Source: a virus
Direction: 5' to 3' (one strand)
Virus record (IMG/VR): IMGVR_UViG_3300032893_000126
Span: 1 to 41,624 of that record
DNA: 41,624 nucleotides
The translations under genes were made by a program, and so were the position numbers. Below the pieces are notes generated by a model, which worked only from the letters and a program-made list of their open reading frames with translations, made no database searches and was not told the origin of the DNA. Positions 22,246 to 29,837 of the stretch are shown piece by piece; positions within the stretch are counted from its first letter, which is position 1; the number at the start of each line of letters is the position of its first letter.

Positions 22246-22389
22246 TCAGTCCGGCATGTAGGACCGCTCAGCGCAGCACTCGCTCAGCCCGCACTCGGAA
22301 CAAAACCCGGCGTGCTCCCGGCAGCTCAGACAAATATCGATGTCGACGTCCTTGTCGAAGACGCACTCGTGCTCGTCGTTCTCAGACAC
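22246..22389 (-). CDS. 47-aa cysteine-rich protein
   Basis: GTG at 22389 overlaps the SSB stop, and the longer upstream frame has no sensible protein character. The peptide has CLSCREHAGFCSECGLSECC at its centre, a probable double zinc knuckle, and an acidic N-terminus (SENDEHECVFDKDVDIDI). Function is unknown. The start choice rests on the overlap rather than on a strong ribosome site. Confidence 0.5.
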   Translation of the reverse strand: MSENDEHECVFDKDVDIDICLSCREHAGFCSECGLSECCAERSYMPD

Positions 22390-22702
22390 CGGATGCCTCG
22401 CTCTCTCGTTTCCAGTTCGATCCACCGTCGAGGAATCGGACGTTGCTCGCGATGATCTCGAACCCAGACGCCGCCTGATGGAGCCGCCCATCGACGTAGA
22501 CCACCGACCCGCACTTCAGGTACTTCTGGCAGCTCTCGGCCGCCTTCCCGTTGATGACGATCATGTGATAGGTCGCCTCCGTTGCGACCCCGTCCTGTCT
22601 CGTCGTGACGACGACCATCCGTGCCGTTGACTTCCCGTTCAGGTCCTTCTCGATCACCGGATCACTGCTGACCCGCCCCACTAGAATCACTTGGTTGACC
22701 AC
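22382..22702 (-). CDS. ssb: Single-stranded DNA-binding protein
   Basis: The frame is open to 22795, but the GTG at 22702 has GGGGGCGG upstream and gives VVNQVILVGRVSSDPVIEKD, the typical SSB OB-fold start. TYHMIVINGKAAESCQKYLK and GSVVYVDGRLH continue the fold, for 106 aa in total. There is no acidic C-terminal tail (no DDxIPF-like end), so it may not contact host partners in the E. coli way. It would act with the neighbouring Rad52-like protein. Confidence 0.8.
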   Translation of the reverse strand: MVNQVILVGRVSSDPVIEKDLNGKSTARMVVVTTRQDGVATEATYHMIVINGKAAESCQKYLKCGSVVYVDGRLHQAASGFEIIASNVRFLDGGSNWKRESEASGV

Positions 22703-22932
22703 TCGCCGCCCCCAATGAGTTCGTCGATGAACTCGTCCATTGCCTTCATGAAACGGGCGTGCGCGGGTTTCGCCTCGTCTATCGTTTTCGTGCATGTGTT
22801 CAGGACCATCGCGCGGTGAAGCTCTCGAGCCTTCTCCCTGATCCTTTTGGCGTGACCGAGGTCACCCCGCTTGATGGCCGCCAAGAGGTCGGCCCGCATC
22901 ATCTCCAGGATTTGTCGCCTGAACTCCCTCAC
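22687..22932 (-). CDS. Hypothetical 81-aa helical protein
   Basis: GTG at 22932 overlaps the annealase stop (GTGA). The sequence is almost all helix with alternating charge (MREFRRQILEMMRADLLAAI, KRIREKARELHRAMVLN). It lies between the Rad52-like gene and SSB and overlaps SSB by 16 bp. An accessory role in recombination is possible by position only. Confidence 0.55.
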   Translation of the reverse strand: MREFRRQILEMMRADLLAAIKRGDLGHAKRIREKARELHRAMVLNTCTKTIDEAKPAHARFMKAMDEFIDELIGGGEWSTK

Positions 22933-23729
22933 GGCGAGCCCTTGCTTGATCCCCCTGGAGGATGACTTTGCTGCTTCATCTTGAGTTCGTGAAAGACGAC
23001 TTCGGGTCGTCGCTTGGATACGGTCGCGAGGAACTCCTCGAGATCGGTGGCCTTGAGCTGGCCTAATCGGTCGATGCCGAATCGGAGCTTCGCGTATTCG
23101 ATCACCTGGGGGCTGCCCCAGTTGTTCCCGTTCGCCGCGATATGGATCTTTTCCGCTTCGATCTTTGAGATCGTAGCTGCTTGAGGTTCCACTCGAGTAC
23201 CCCCGGAATCCCAGGGCTGAGGAGCCGGATCAGTTGCTCCATCAGCTTTTCGCGGGAGAGCCCACGCCGGGAGGGGGGGCGGGACCCAGTAGAACGTTTC
23301 GTTTTCTTTTGTCTTGCCGTAGCGTGCTCCTTTGGTTCCTTGCGGGACGATCTTCGCCCAGCCTTCTTCGACGTTATAGAGATAGCGACCGGGTCCCCAG
23401 AGGACGGCCGCGCGCTTCAGGGCTCCGGAGATACCCCCCTTGAACGGTTCGAAGTCGGTCTGCTCCGCGCCGTCGACCTTCTCGACCCATTCGTCGCCGA
23501 ACTTGACTCCGAGCGCGCAGAGGACTCCGGAGCTATGAATCTCGTACCGGACGCGCCAGTGGGCCGGGCCGAAGACCTCGTCGAAGCGGTCCATGATCGC
23601 TCGGGCCTCAACGTAGGCCAAGCACTTGGCCCAGACGCCCTGTTGGTTCTTCCCGCATTGTCCGATCCGCCATTCGATGGCGTCCTCGGGGAACGGCGCT
23701 TGCAGCGCCTTCTTCAGATCAGTGCTCAT
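22929..23729 (-). CDS. Rad52/22-type ssDNA annealing protein
   Basis: The 266-aa protein has the Rad52 N-terminal core. PFPEDAIEWRIGQCG, then CLAYVEARAIMDRFDEVFGP with HWRVRYE, and KGGISGALKRAAVLWGPGRY (about 97-116) with LYN match the conserved patch of the family. These proteins form rings and anneal complementary strands in phage recombination. The last third is less conserved and ends in a Lys/Gln/Ser-rich tail. No partner exonuclease is visible in the genome. Confidence 0.85.
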   Translation of the reverse strand: MSTDLKKALQAPFPEDAIEWRIGQCGKNQQGVWAKCLAYVEARAIMDRFDEVFGPAHWRVRYEIHSSGVLCALGVKFGDEWVEKVDGAEQTDFEPFKGGISGALKRAAVLWGPGRYLYNVEEGWAKIVPQGTKGARYGKTKENETFYWVPPPLPAWALPRKADGATDPAPQPWDSGGTRVEPQAATISKIEAEKIHIAANGNNWGSPQVIEYAKLRFGIDRLGQLKATDLEEFLATVSKRRPEVVFHELKMKQQSHPPGGSSKGSP

Positions 23730-25913: not shown

Positions 25914-26471
25914 TTCGACCCCGCCTTTGCACGCGCCGGGCGGAGGTAAGTAAACGTGCGGCGCGATCTGTCGGGCTTCGGCGTGCGTCATCCGGCCCTT
26001 CTCAACAGCCGCAGCGAATGCCGCTTGATGCATCGCCTTGTCGTGACCGAGACTCGGCGTCCAGCGCGGCCGCCGACCCTGATGACTGCGCGATTCAGCA
26101 AGAAGTCGTTTGTAAACTTCGCGGAAGGTCATGCGCGCGCCGACCTCGTCGGACTCAAGTAACTCCCGTGCCGCGCCGAAAGCTTGCGCCATTTCGTCCG
26201 TCCAGATCACGGACCCTAATTCGTCTTTCGGGATCATCGCCCAAGCTTCCTCGACGCCAGGATGCCCGTCTTCCAGGCGGTCGATAATTTCCGAAAGACT
26301 GGGAAACGTTCGTAATTCGCTTCGGCACTTCGCCAACGCTTTCACGACGGCGGCCTCCGGATATTTCCGCAAGTCCTGCAAAAGCATTTCCGCCCCGATC
26401 GCTGTGAGCTGCCGTCCGTAGATTTCCGCAGTCCCCTGAATCGCTTCGAGCAAAGTGAGGTTATTTTTCAT
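25851..26471 (-). CDS. Replication loader-like protein (lambda P-type role)
   Basis: The 206-aa protein follows the initiator gene with an 11-bp overlap. NLTLLEAIQGTAEIYGRQLT starts a helical N-domain, and ALAKCRSELRTFPSLSEIID matches the layout of phage helicase-loader N-terminal proteins. The middle has ATMTF-like helices (EVGARMTFREVYKRLLAES). Its position after an O-like initiator supports a helicase-loading role. Sequence identity to a named loader cannot be checked here. Confidence 0.6.
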   Translation of the reverse strand: MKNNLTLLEAIQGTAEIYGRQLTAIGAEMLLQDLRKYPEAAVVKALAKCRSELRTFPSLSEIIDRLEDGHPGVEEAWAMIPKDELGSVIWTDEMAQAFGAARELLESDEVGARMTFREVYKRLLAESRSHQGRRPRWTPSLGHDKAMHQAAFAAAVEKGRMTHAEARQIAPHVYLPPPGACKGGVESVGGVARRLIAERNLIDGDE

Positions 26472-27315
26472 TCATCGCCTCCCGTTGGTTGATGCGTTCC
26501 ATCGCTTCTGCGAACACGTCCGAATTGTGTTGCATTCGTTCAACATCGCGCGCCGTCGTGCCGAGCATCCGGCGCCCCGTTGCCCATTCGGTCCTGAGTT
26601 TCTCCGCATCCCGAAGCAACGGGCCGATTGCGTGCATCGTCCGGAGATAAAAACTGTCGTTGTGCGTTAGGTAAAACGCCGCGACAAGGGGGGCTTCCTC
26701 CGCTCCGAGTCGCCGAACGAATTGCGCTAGCTGACCCGAAACGGTCGCGTTCCTGACCGGGGGTTCTCCGTATCGGGCTAAGTACGCTTCTCGGTAGGCC
26801 TCCCAAGTGGGAACCGTGACTCCCTCGGGGCGGACCGGAGCGGAAGCTCCGTCCGTAGATTTTGTTTTTTTCTTTGTTTTTTGAAAATTAGAAATTGGTA
26901 ATTGAGAAGAAGAAAGAGAAGAGGGGAAAGTAGAAGGTAGAAAGAAGGTTGAACCTTGGTCAACCTGGGTTGAGCCCTGGTTGAAACTTTTCTTCAATCT
27001 TTTCGCGGCTGACGCTTTTCCAGCTTTTTCTGACCTCCGGAGCCATTCAAACTGGTCATTTGACCCGCAAACGTATATTCCATACTCAGTTTGACGCGCC
27101 AAGCCTACCTCAAGAATTAGATCCTTGGCTTCAACCTTGGACCACTCCGCCAACGGGATGGCCCGATGGGGTGAAACGAGATGCCAATCTTGAGCCAACG
27201 TCCACGCCGTGACGAGAGCTCCTATGGCCTGATATTTGCCGCCCATTTTAACCACCAATTTCAAAAAGCGATCGTCTGAATAGATCGATCGATCGATGAC
27301 GAGAGCATTCGCCAT
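26461..27315 (-). CDS. Replication initiator-like protein (lambda O-type)
   Basis: The upstream frame is open to 27507, but ATG at 27315 has AAGAGGAG directly before it and gives 284 aa. Residues 1-110 resemble a winged-helix initiator domain (MANALVIDRSIYSDDRFLKL, GALVTAWTLAQDWHLVS). A low-complexity linker (Ser/Gln/Lys-rich) follows at about 112-165. The C-terminal domain has TWEAYREAYLARYGEPP and FVRRLGAEEAPLVAAFYLTH. The linker codes over an iteron array and AT-rich tract, as lambda O does over its origin. Confidence 0.65.
   Translation of the reverse strand: MANALVIDRSIYSDDRFLKLVVKMGGKYQAIGALVTAWTLAQDWHLVSPHRAIPLAEWSKVEAKDLILEVGLARQTEYGIYVCGSNDQFEWLRRSEKAGKASAAKRLKKSFNQGSTQVDQGSTFFLPSTFPSSLSSSQLPISNFQKTKKKTKSTDGASAPVRPEGVTVPTWEAYREAYLARYGEPPVRNATVSGQLAQFVRRLGAEEAPLVAAFYLTHNDSFYLRTMHAIGPLLRDAEKLRTEWATGRRMLGTTARDVERMQHNSDVFAEAMERINQREAMNEK
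26857..26987. other. Putative origin: iterons plus AT-rich tract inside the initiator gene
   Basis: Four copies of GGTTGANCC-like 9-mers lie at 26947 (GGTTGAACC), 26957 (inverted, GGTTGACCA), 26968 (GGTTGAGCC) and 26979 (GGTTGAAAC). They are 10-11 bp apart, so all face the same side of the helix. An AT-rich, strand-asymmetric tract (26857-26946) lies beside them. This mirrors lambda ori inside gene O. Confidence 0.65.
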
Positions 27316-27653: not shown

Positions 27654-28313
27654 ATGGCAAAGAAGCTTGAAATCGTCTGGCGTGACCCGGGAACCCTCAC
27701 CCCTTACATCAAAAACGCGAAGGTTCATTCCAACGAACAGATCGATAAGATCGCCGGCCAGATCGCTGCCTTCGGATTCGATCAGCCCATCGTCGTCGAC
27801 AAAAAGGGCGTCATCATCAAGGGCCATGGACGGAGGGAAGCCGCAATCCGGCTGAAGCTCAAGAAAGTCCCGGTCGTCGTTTCGACGTTAGACCAGTATC
27901 AGGCGATGGCGGCACGTATTGGTGACAACAAAGTTGCTGAAGCGCCGTGGGACCCTGAGCTATTGAAATTCGATCTCGAATCCTTGAAGCTCGAAGAGTT
28001 TGACCTCGCGCTGACCGCGATGGACATGGATCAAATCTTCAGCATCACCAATCCGCAAAGCAGCGAAGATATTTTCAGCGAAAATGATCACAAGAGCGTT
28101 TCGGAGCGCAAAGAACAGTACGACTCTAGCGATCTTCGGCAGATGATTCTCGTGATGGATCCCGTGACTTTCGATGCGATGATGAACCGATTTGCCAGTT
28201 TACAGGATGCGTTCGGAGTAGAAACAAATTTGGAGGTCGTTGAAAAACTCATGGACCACTACGCCGAATCTAACCCTTCTGTTTTTGAATCCGCGGTTCA
28301 TGCTTCGAATTGA
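27654..28313 (+). CDS. ParB-N-like protein without methylase domain
   Basis: Residues 1-125 of 219 follow the ParB/Srx fold: a TPYIKNAKVHSNEQIDKIAG start, DQPIVVDKKGVIIKGHGRRE (44-62), RIGDNKVAEAPWDPELLKFD, and DFDLALT-like ending. In many phages this domain is fused to an N4/N6 adenine or cytosine methylase. Here the fusion partner is missing, and a helical C-terminus (VTFDAMMNRFASLQDAFGVE) takes its place. It is the first gene of the modification operon and may be a DNA-guiding or CTP-dependent factor for the dioxygenase. Confidence 0.75.
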   Translation: MAKKLEIVWRDPGTLTPYIKNAKVHSNEQIDKIAGQIAAFGFDQPIVVDKKGVIIKGHGRREAAIRLKLKKVPVVVSTLDQYQAMAARIGDNKVAEAPWDPELLKFDLESLKLEEFDLALTAMDMDQIFSITNPQSSEDIFSENDHKSVSERKEQYDSSDLRQMILVMDPVTFDAMMNRFASLQDAFGVETNLEVVEKLMDHYAESNPSVFESAVHASN

Positions 28314-29115
28314 AACCTCGCTCGGGGCGAAGGCGGATCGGGTTGATCTTTACCGGACATCGCCAAAGGAAGAGCACGCAAAAAATCTCATTGCTGAAAG
28401 CTGTGAGCTTTGGGTGGACGGCGTAAAAACGCTCACCTATCTGCAAAACTTTCCGATGGAGGACCTCCGAGGAGCGGTTCGCGCGATTGAAAAAATTGGT
28501 TCAAATAGGCGTCAAAGTGGGGTTCCGAGCCAGAGTCGGACCTTCGGATTCATGCCTCGAATGCCAGTTCAACAAAGGGATTATTGCTTCGGTTGTACAT
28601 TGAATCGCGATTACCCGGCGACAAAGAATGTTCTCTTTCGTTACGCGGAAAAATTCACTGAACTCCTCGGAAAACATCATCCGGAAAAGCTCACTTTAAG
28701 CCGGCAAGCGATTTCAACAGTTCAACCGGACTGGGTGATTCCTCACAGCGTTTTTACCAGCGGAATCGTCAACCAGGACAATCCGCTTCAATACCATTAC
28801 GACGCCGGAAATTTTGAAGGGACTTGGTCCGTAATGGCCATGTTGAAACACCAAGTCGCCGGAGGTCACTTAGTCCTTCCGGAGTTCGGAATTAAACTCG
28901 CTTGCGCCGATAGCTCGGTGCTGATCTTTGACGGTCAAAGCGAGCTGCATGGAGTGACGCCGATCCGTAAGATGCACGCCGATTCCTATCGGTTTTCGAT
29001 CGTGTTTTACTCACTAGAAAGAATGTGCAAATGCGGAACGCCACGCGAGGAGCTTCGCCGGGCGCAAAAATCCAGGACCGCCACCGAAATGAAGCGCGCC
29101 GGAGTCACGAAATGA
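28300..29115 (+). CDS. TET/JBP-type 2-oxoglutarate/Fe(II) dioxygenase
   Basis: The frame is open to a TTG at 28240, but ATG at 28300 gives 271 aa starting MLRIETSLGAK. The double-stranded beta-helix has its iron site in NPLQYHYDAGNFEGTW (His166, Asp168) and SELHGVTPI (His217). The oxoglutarate-binding Arg is in SYRFSIVFYS (Arg231). The Asn-Asp-Asn-Pro-Leu before the HxD and the Gly-Gly-His-Leu-Val-Leu-Pro-Glu segment match phage TET/JBP members. These hydroxylate 5-methylcytosine or thymine in DNA. A C-terminal Cys-rich basic tail may bind DNA. Confidence 0.75.
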   Translation: MLRIETSLGAKADRVDLYRTSPKEEHAKNLIAESCELWVDGVKTLTYLQNFPMEDLRGAVRAIEKIGSNRRQSGVPSQSRTFGFMPRMPVQQRDYCFGCTLNRDYPATKNVLFRYAEKFTELLGKHHPEKLTLSRQAISTVQPDWVIPHSVFTSGIVNQDNPLQYHYDAGNFEGTWSVMAMLKHQVAGGHLVLPEFGIKLACADSSVLIFDGQSELHGVTPIRKMHADSYRFSIVFYSLERMCKCGTPREELRRAQKSRTATEMKRAGVTK

Positions 29116-29837
29116 AGTTCAAAATCTATGTTATTTCACACCTCCGGCCCGCCGCCGTTGCAAAGATGACTCCCTTTGTCGGGGTAGCGACGTGGTGTGT
29201 GGGAGCGGGGGAAAAGCAAGCTTACACTTATGCCGGTGCCGAACGCGCAGTGGAGACCGGCGGTCTTTGTGAAAGCAGAAATTGGGCGCTCGAAGACGCT
29301 TTCAAGAGTGGTGCGGCTTGCGTTCAAATTTCGGATGACCTGAGTAAGTTGGCGCGGATCGTGGAGATCGGAAAGAACACGACCACCAAGATGACCGTTC
29401 GAGAGGCCGTCGAGCTTATGATCGCGCAAGCCGATGCGGTCGGCGCGAAGTACGCCGGGTGCGCTCCGACGGCGAACCCCTTCTTCACTCAACGGAAGGT
29501 CAGCACTGCACACTTTATCGTTGGTGATTTTATAACTGTTCTTCCGAGCGAGCCCCGATTCGACACCCGATTGAAACTCAAAGAGGACTATGACTTCACA
29601 GCGCAGCACTTCAACGAGTACGGAGCCGTCGCTCGATGTGACGAGATCATGGCAACGTTCGCTCATCGGACGAACGCCGGGGGTGCTGTCGCTTACCGAA
29701 CGAGCGAGCGCGAGCAGGAAGCGATCCGCCTTCTCAAAGCGAAGTGGCCTAAATGGATCATCGATAATGGTCGTCGGAACGACGAAGTTCTGATGCGATT
29801 ACCGAAAATGAAGCCGTCTAATCTATCGGTTTCATAA
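29112..29837 (+). CDS. GREB1/TAGT-type DNA glycosyltransferase candidate
   Basis: The 241-aa protein is ATGA-coupled to the dioxygenase. KIYVISHLRPAAVAKM starts a GT-A-like core. GLCESRNWALEDAF and VQISDDLSKL (Asp75-Asp76) give the donor and metal site. LKEDYDFTAQH is the second acidic patch. HRTNAGGAVAYRTSEREQEA with IRLLKAKWP matches the conserved end of TET/JBP-associated glycosyltransferases, the group that includes the base-J glucosyltransferase. It should add a sugar to the hydroxymethyl base made by its neighbour. Confidence 0.7.
   Translation: MKFKIYVISHLRPAAVAKMTPFVGVATWCVGAGEKQAYTYAGAERAVETGGLCESRNWALEDAFKSGAACVQISDDLSKLARIVEIGKNTTTKMTVREAVELMIAQADAVGAKYAGCAPTANPFFTQRKVSTAHFIVGDFITVLPSEPRFDTRLKLKEDYDFTAQHFNEYGAVARCDEIMATFAHRTNAGGAVAYRTSEREQEAIRLLKAKWPKWIIDNGRRNDEVLMRLPKMKPSNLSVS

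Follow-up and report, generated by a model that had tools for sequence, protein, structure and literature searches.

Our analysis suggests that this uncultivated phage quite likely carries its replication origin within its own initiator gene, where the DNA codes for the linker, with an anatomy like that of the bacterial BUS. Among the grounds for the in-gene reading are that a repeat cluster in the window goes beyond chance and that a pyrimidine tract follows in all 20 genes of the family described below. The window is the whole IMG/VR virus record, 41,624 bases long, and its relevant features are the following.

26461..27315, minus strand: initiator gene, 284 aa, an open reading frame with its ATG start at 27315
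26998..27315, minus strand: DNA coding for the N-terminal domain, residues 1-106 (AlphaFold2 and homologues in 19 other phages)
26979..26987, plus strand: repeat 4, GGTTGAAAC, from the sequence
26968..26976, plus strand: repeat 3, GGTTGAGCC, from the sequence
26957..26965, minus strand: repeat 2, inverted, TGGTCAACC on the plus strand, with the GGTTGACC core at 26958-26965
26947..26955, plus strand: repeat 1, GGTTGAACC, nearest the tract, from the sequence
26904..26946, minus strand: pyrimidine tract with T at about every third base (YTN units), from YTN and codon-end counts
26857..26903, no strand: A+T-rich stretch past the tract, candidate unwinding region (GC content and family GC profile)
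26476..26829, minus strand: DNA coding for the O-like C-terminal domain, residues 163-280 (PHROG and Pseudomonas phage matches)
25851..26471, minus strand: overlapping downstream gene, 206 aa, in the lambda P position (phrog_6028, of unknown function)

The C-terminal half of the initiator matches phrog_391, "replication initiation O-like", in the PHROG comparison, and is 50-51% identical to O-like initiators of Pseudomonas phages. The N-terminal domain is predicted by AlphaFold2 (mean pLDDT 89.0) to be a winged helix with a long helix at its end, and is presumed to be the repeat-binding domain; no Pfam model matches these 106 residues and the PDB gave no significant fold match. Residues 115-157, between the two domains, are predicted to be disordered, and the repeats and the tract fall in the DNA coding for the start of this linker. 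We detected no AAA+ module, no DnaD-type domain and no match to Pfam PF09681 (Phage_rep_org_N) in the window initiator.

Four GGTTGA-like repeats lie at start-to-start distances of 10, 11 and 11 bp, and we re-found exactly the 9-mers that a sequence-only reading of this DNA had placed at 26947, 26957, 26968 and 26979. Repeat 2 (TGGTCAACC) reads as GGTTGACC on the opposite strand and lacks one base of the full 9-mer. The repeat unit GGTTSAACC is nearly palindromic, so the orientation of the repeats is ambiguous; the array also allows an all-direct reading on the gene strand, TTCAACCAGGG CTCAACCCAGG TTGACCAAGG TTCAACC, and possibly one as two bipartite 21-bp units. We tested the cluster against chance by counting near-identical 7-mer pairs, both direct and inverted, in codons 106-126. 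This count replaced a hexamer count, which was not discriminating with uniform synonymous codons (1,102 of 20,000 reached it). There are 19 direct and 16 inverted pairs, and their summed score was reached in 8 of 3,000 synonymous resamplings with the same peptide and the record's own codon usage, and in none of 3,000 codon shuffles. Among the 4,618 stretches of 63 bp in the record only one reaches both pair counts, and it is the repeat cluster itself. We also considered whether the repeats are DnaA boxes and rejected this: the record has one TTWTNCACA, 9.8 kb from the repeats (0.43 expected), and no DnaA box stands next to the tract.

On the gene strand the tract runs 5' to 3' away from the repeats. 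Eight of its ten triplets are YTN, and in a row of 13 codons 10 have T as the last base compared with 1.97 expected from the codon usage of the phage, a number reached in 0 of 200,000 simulations. The window tract is less regular than those of the relatives, its longest perfect run being 6, and it was not reported as a tandem repeat. Together with the A+T-rich stretch it spans 26857-26946 and has 28% GC, and the 50 bp closest to the repeats are 90% purine on the plus strand. The GC skew has no turning point at 26.9 kb, which counts against the origin reading, though gene direction confounds the skew and we regard it as uninformative on the origin.

We searched for relatives by protein only, first with a pattern taken from where the N-terminal domain ends, next with an alignment and finally with a pattern from its start. 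The repeats and the tract played no part in this search, which brought the family to 20 by adding 19 uncultivated phages; their N-terminal domains have 25-44% identity to that of the window. No close relatives of the window domain were found in viral contigs or in cultured phages, and plasmids gave only two weak matches. Among cultured phages we found none that has this domain at all. A pattern scan of the GTDB representatives did not find the family either, its ten matches all proving to be chance on translation.

The repeat sequence after the N-terminal domain varies nearly phage by phage, e.g. GAACGGGCGTT in L026, GACCGAAAGC in L024 and CTAGCAAACG in L020, and the spacing is helical throughout the family. 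Pooling the 20 genes, we counted 173 near-identical 6-mers at 10 bp compared with 16 expected from codon shuffles (z 24.7); the long array of L021 supplies much of this pooled count, and the per-gene numbers agree, with the 10-bp spacing present in 15 genes (6.9 expected). The 21-bp spacing has z 21.9 and is present in 17 genes, again with 6.9 expected. Other peaks are at 11 bp (z 7.9), 20 bp (z 9.5) and 32 bp (z 8.0), with hardly any elsewhere. All five are helical distances and only 21 is a codon multiple, so the one repeat per helical turn proposed in the sequence-only reading is seen across the family. The repeats are faint in some relatives (L030, L031), and in L029 they were seen by eye, the automatic region having ended early.

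The pyrimidine tract follows the repeats in 20 of 20 genes, and most of the tracts start exactly with CTCTT or CTCCT. The units vary among genes (CTCTTA, CTCTTC, CTCTTT, CTCCTA) and up to 18 T-spaced units occur in the relatives. Thirteen genes read the tract in one register, seven in another and none in the third, with the T at codon position 1 or 3, and the encoded peptides are Leu-Thr, Pro-Thr, Ser-Tyr or Ser-Ser. Since it is read in two codon registers, the tract is conserved as DNA and not as peptide. T recurs every three bases over 7 or more positions in 17 of the 20 genes, and does so in 11 of the 221 other long frames that we took from these loci as controls (p 4e-16), and at least 7 of 10 triplets are YTN in 19 of the 20 genes compared with 8 of the 221 control frames (Fisher p 6e-21), the 20 genes being related and the counts across them not fully independent. 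L025 and L032 break the T register; in L032 (3986-4768) the tract has 7-bp CTCTTTA units instead of 6-bp ones, which shifts the register, and the C-terminal domain is Phg_2220_C. Along the family the GC content is 52-56% in the repeats, drops to 39-44% where the tract begins (its first 30 bp) and is 33-36% beyond, with a gene mean of 45%.

The N-terminal domain, the repeats and the tract behave as a cassette, since the C-terminal domains differ among the relatives: their PHROG matches include O-like proteins, a DnaD-like helicase loader and other initiation proteins, and one is the Phg_2220_C just mentioned. We collected 61 distinct initiators by the window C-terminal domain alone and found the tract in 2 of them and not in the other 59. 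L242 has the tract and a window-type N-terminal domain (HMM E 7e-39); L209, the gene of L001, has the tract but a different N-terminal domain. The T-periodic tract is absent from lambda O, and also from ten cultured-phage O-like genes in which the same C-terminal domain is joined to other N-terminal domains. A second N-terminal class, first met via the tract and later re-sampled by protein alone, has a T-spaced linker run of 7 or more in 10 of the 14 genes sampled, L184 with its GATCCT units among them. The tract and the N-terminal domain thus tend to travel together. A profile comparison was too weak to establish homology of the two N-terminal classes (probability 3%, E 0.013), and PF09681 matches one member of the second class only, weakly.

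The linkers of other initiators carry related or different repeats. The GATCCT units of L184 encode Asp-Pro repeats and keep T at every third base although pyrimidines do not make up the whole tract, and this speaks against triplex formation as its role; L179 has a similar repeat peptide, Glu/Asp-Pro. Exact 6-bp repeats of varied sequence occur in 12 of 61 linkers of other initiator classes. L203, L216, L235, L247, L256 and L270, whose initiators combine the window-type C-terminal domain with other N-terminal domains, have CCCTT-rich repeats followed by a tract with A at every third base (CAGGAA units), so that the T spacing lies on the other strand. AACCGG or GGGACA hexamer repeats with no three-base rule are found in L225, L226, L229, L240 and L264, and are possibly origin tracts of another type. 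The idea that T spacing is universal among phage initiators failed on these AACCGG, GGGACA and CAGGAA linkers, and a T-based single-strand rule is thus not universal. Nor did the tract alone serve as an origin marker: an unbiased tract scan also gave many low-complexity stretches in unrelated genes, encoding poly-Leu, Phe-Leu and poly-Pro.

The proposed origin is lambda-like in its location and not in its repeat length, spacing or tract. As in lambda ori and Stx phages, an O-type initiator gene has repeats and an asymmetric A+T-rich stretch in its middle, where it codes for the linker, and another gene follows it directly. The sequence-only reading was right in calling the gene O-like, which the C-terminal domain matches bear out, and in placing the repeats and the tract over the linker, with which the disorder prediction agrees. 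Its "lambda ori design" was too specific: lambda iterons are 18 bp long and 20-24 bp apart, whereas the window repeats are 9 bp at 10-11 bp, the tract beside them consists of YTN units, and the N-terminal domain falls outside the Pfam models. It had also described about 90 bp of strand-asymmetric AT-rich DNA, of which the low GC and the purine bias stand, while what the family conserves is the three-base spacing of T. The P-like gene that it saw is indeed a small overlapping gene in the P position; it has no Pfam match and no match to a P family, and a 41% identical homologue follows the initiator in L001.

An ordinary lambda-type origin is nevertheless the strongest alternative, with a chance that we put not far short of even. 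In such an origin the repeats would be initiator sites and the tract an easily melted asymmetric duplex with no sequence-specific role as a single strand. Lambda and Stx origins operate so, their minimal unwinding unit being two iterons and the A+T-rich region (PMC7466680), and A+T-rich DNA does lie past the tract. However, the tract itself is only moderately A+T-rich in its first 30 bp relative to the gene mean, lambda O does without such a tract, and units of the CTCCTA type recur (L045), which leaves the T spacing as the conserved property.

It is unlikely that the tract is a microsatellite expanding in a permissive disordered linker, with repeats that mean nothing as DNA. The linkers are indeed disordered and of low complexity, and the 6-bp repeats of the twelve other-class linkers, some A-spaced and some with no three-base rule, speak for it. 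Yet a random hexamer has T at both i and i+3 with a chance of 0.18, far from the 17 of 20 genes with runs of at least 7, and the T-spaced runs, though made of different units, all follow the repeats at one position and occupy one strand. The window tract, for its part, keeps its T-ending codons while not being a reported tandem repeat.

We consider it highly improbable that the repeats are a regulatory site of the early operon instead of an origin. Self-repression is common among initiators, and the repeats are located within a transcribed gene, but the site lies far inside the coding sequence and every relative has the fixed tract alongside, as in known in-gene phage origins. That a peptide repeat of the linker produced the DNA repeats is hardly credible: QGST is present twice, 7 codons apart, but the core hexamers do not share a codon register (two are in frame as TCA ACC, the other two out of frame as TTC AAC C and G GTT GA), the synonymous null rarely reaches the observed score, the family spacings of 10, 11, 20 and 32 bp are not multiples of 3, and the DNA repeats are kept across the family while the peptide changes. 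The sequence-only reading had argued against a simple peptide cause from the inverted copy; the conclusion stands through the codon registers, although "inverted" is overstated for a nearly palindromic unit.

The proposed in-gene origin resembles the bacterial BUS more closely in its layout. In the BUS, DnaA boxes are followed by DnaA-trios (PMC8287927), and in B. subtilis and others, as in the phages, double-strand sites precede a trinucleotide tract of equal polarity and then A+T-rich DNA (PMC8287927). The phage tract has A as the middle base on one strand, in at least 3 units and with the right polarity. Phage-specific repeats, however, take the place of the DnaA boxes, and the phage site is inside a coding sequence. 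The phage element is not a BUS by membership, as it has no DnaA boxes. On the strand opposite the trios B. subtilis carries the DnaD Recognition Element (DRE), 5'-CTACTATTACTTCTACTA-3', whose TnnT pairs are both required and enough for DnaD to bind specifically (PMC10201434). The T-spaced phage strand corresponds to the DRE-like strand, has at least 2 TnnT motifs, and matches the B. subtilis 5'-CTACTATTACTTCTACTA-3' in spacing and polarity (PMC10201434). DnaD-like C-terminal domains occur in some family members, the window initiator having none detected. Phage_rep_org_N or Lin1244/Lin1753-like initiators have a similar domain order, and comparison with viral structures matched Lin1244/Lin1753-like and DUF1376 proteins, among others. 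The second N-terminal class is similar-looking and has the tract in most members. We found no link between the BUS or the DRE and phage origins in the open-licence PubMed Central literature.

We speculate, with some hesitation, that a set of uncultivated phages carries a counterpart of the DnaA-trios and the DnaD element, i.e. a directional trinucleotide-spaced single-strand loading tract beside phased initiator sites, placed in the coding sequence of the initiator and exchanged together with its DNA-binding domain. The winged-helix N-terminal domain would bind the phased repeats, either as single copies at each turn or as dimers on each 21-bp pair, and the bound domains would assemble along one side of the helix. 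The assembled complex may then open the neighbouring tract and the A+T-rich DNA. The strand with T at every third base, or the complementary one with A at every third base, would probably be a directional single-strand landing site; taken alone, we offer this step tentatively and by analogy, at somewhat below an even chance. This site would determine the strand and the polarity of loading when the C-terminal domain, together with the protein of the downstream gene, brings in the host helicase. The BUS and the DRE have been described so far for bacterial chromosomes. If phage origins share the trinucleotide logic with unrelated initiators, the single-strand sequence could be a general code for the place and the strand of helicase loading. 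The overlap of code and origin allows silent codon changes that remove the T spacing and leave the protein unaltered, and the in-gene layout supplies a rule for locating origins in uncultivated phages.

Other genes of DNA metabolism are found near the initiator. Divergent from it, at 27654-29837 on the plus strand, are a ParB-like nuclease gene and a Tet/JBP-type 2-oxoglutarate oxygenase gene (Pfam PF12851, E 1e-14), the latter overlapped by an unassigned 270-aa open reading frame; the oxygenase may be involved in DNA base hypermodification. A recombination module lies downstream of the origin gene at 22382-23729 on the minus strand, with a Rad52/Erf-type annealing protein (PF04098) followed by an open reading frame that resembles a single-strand binding protein.
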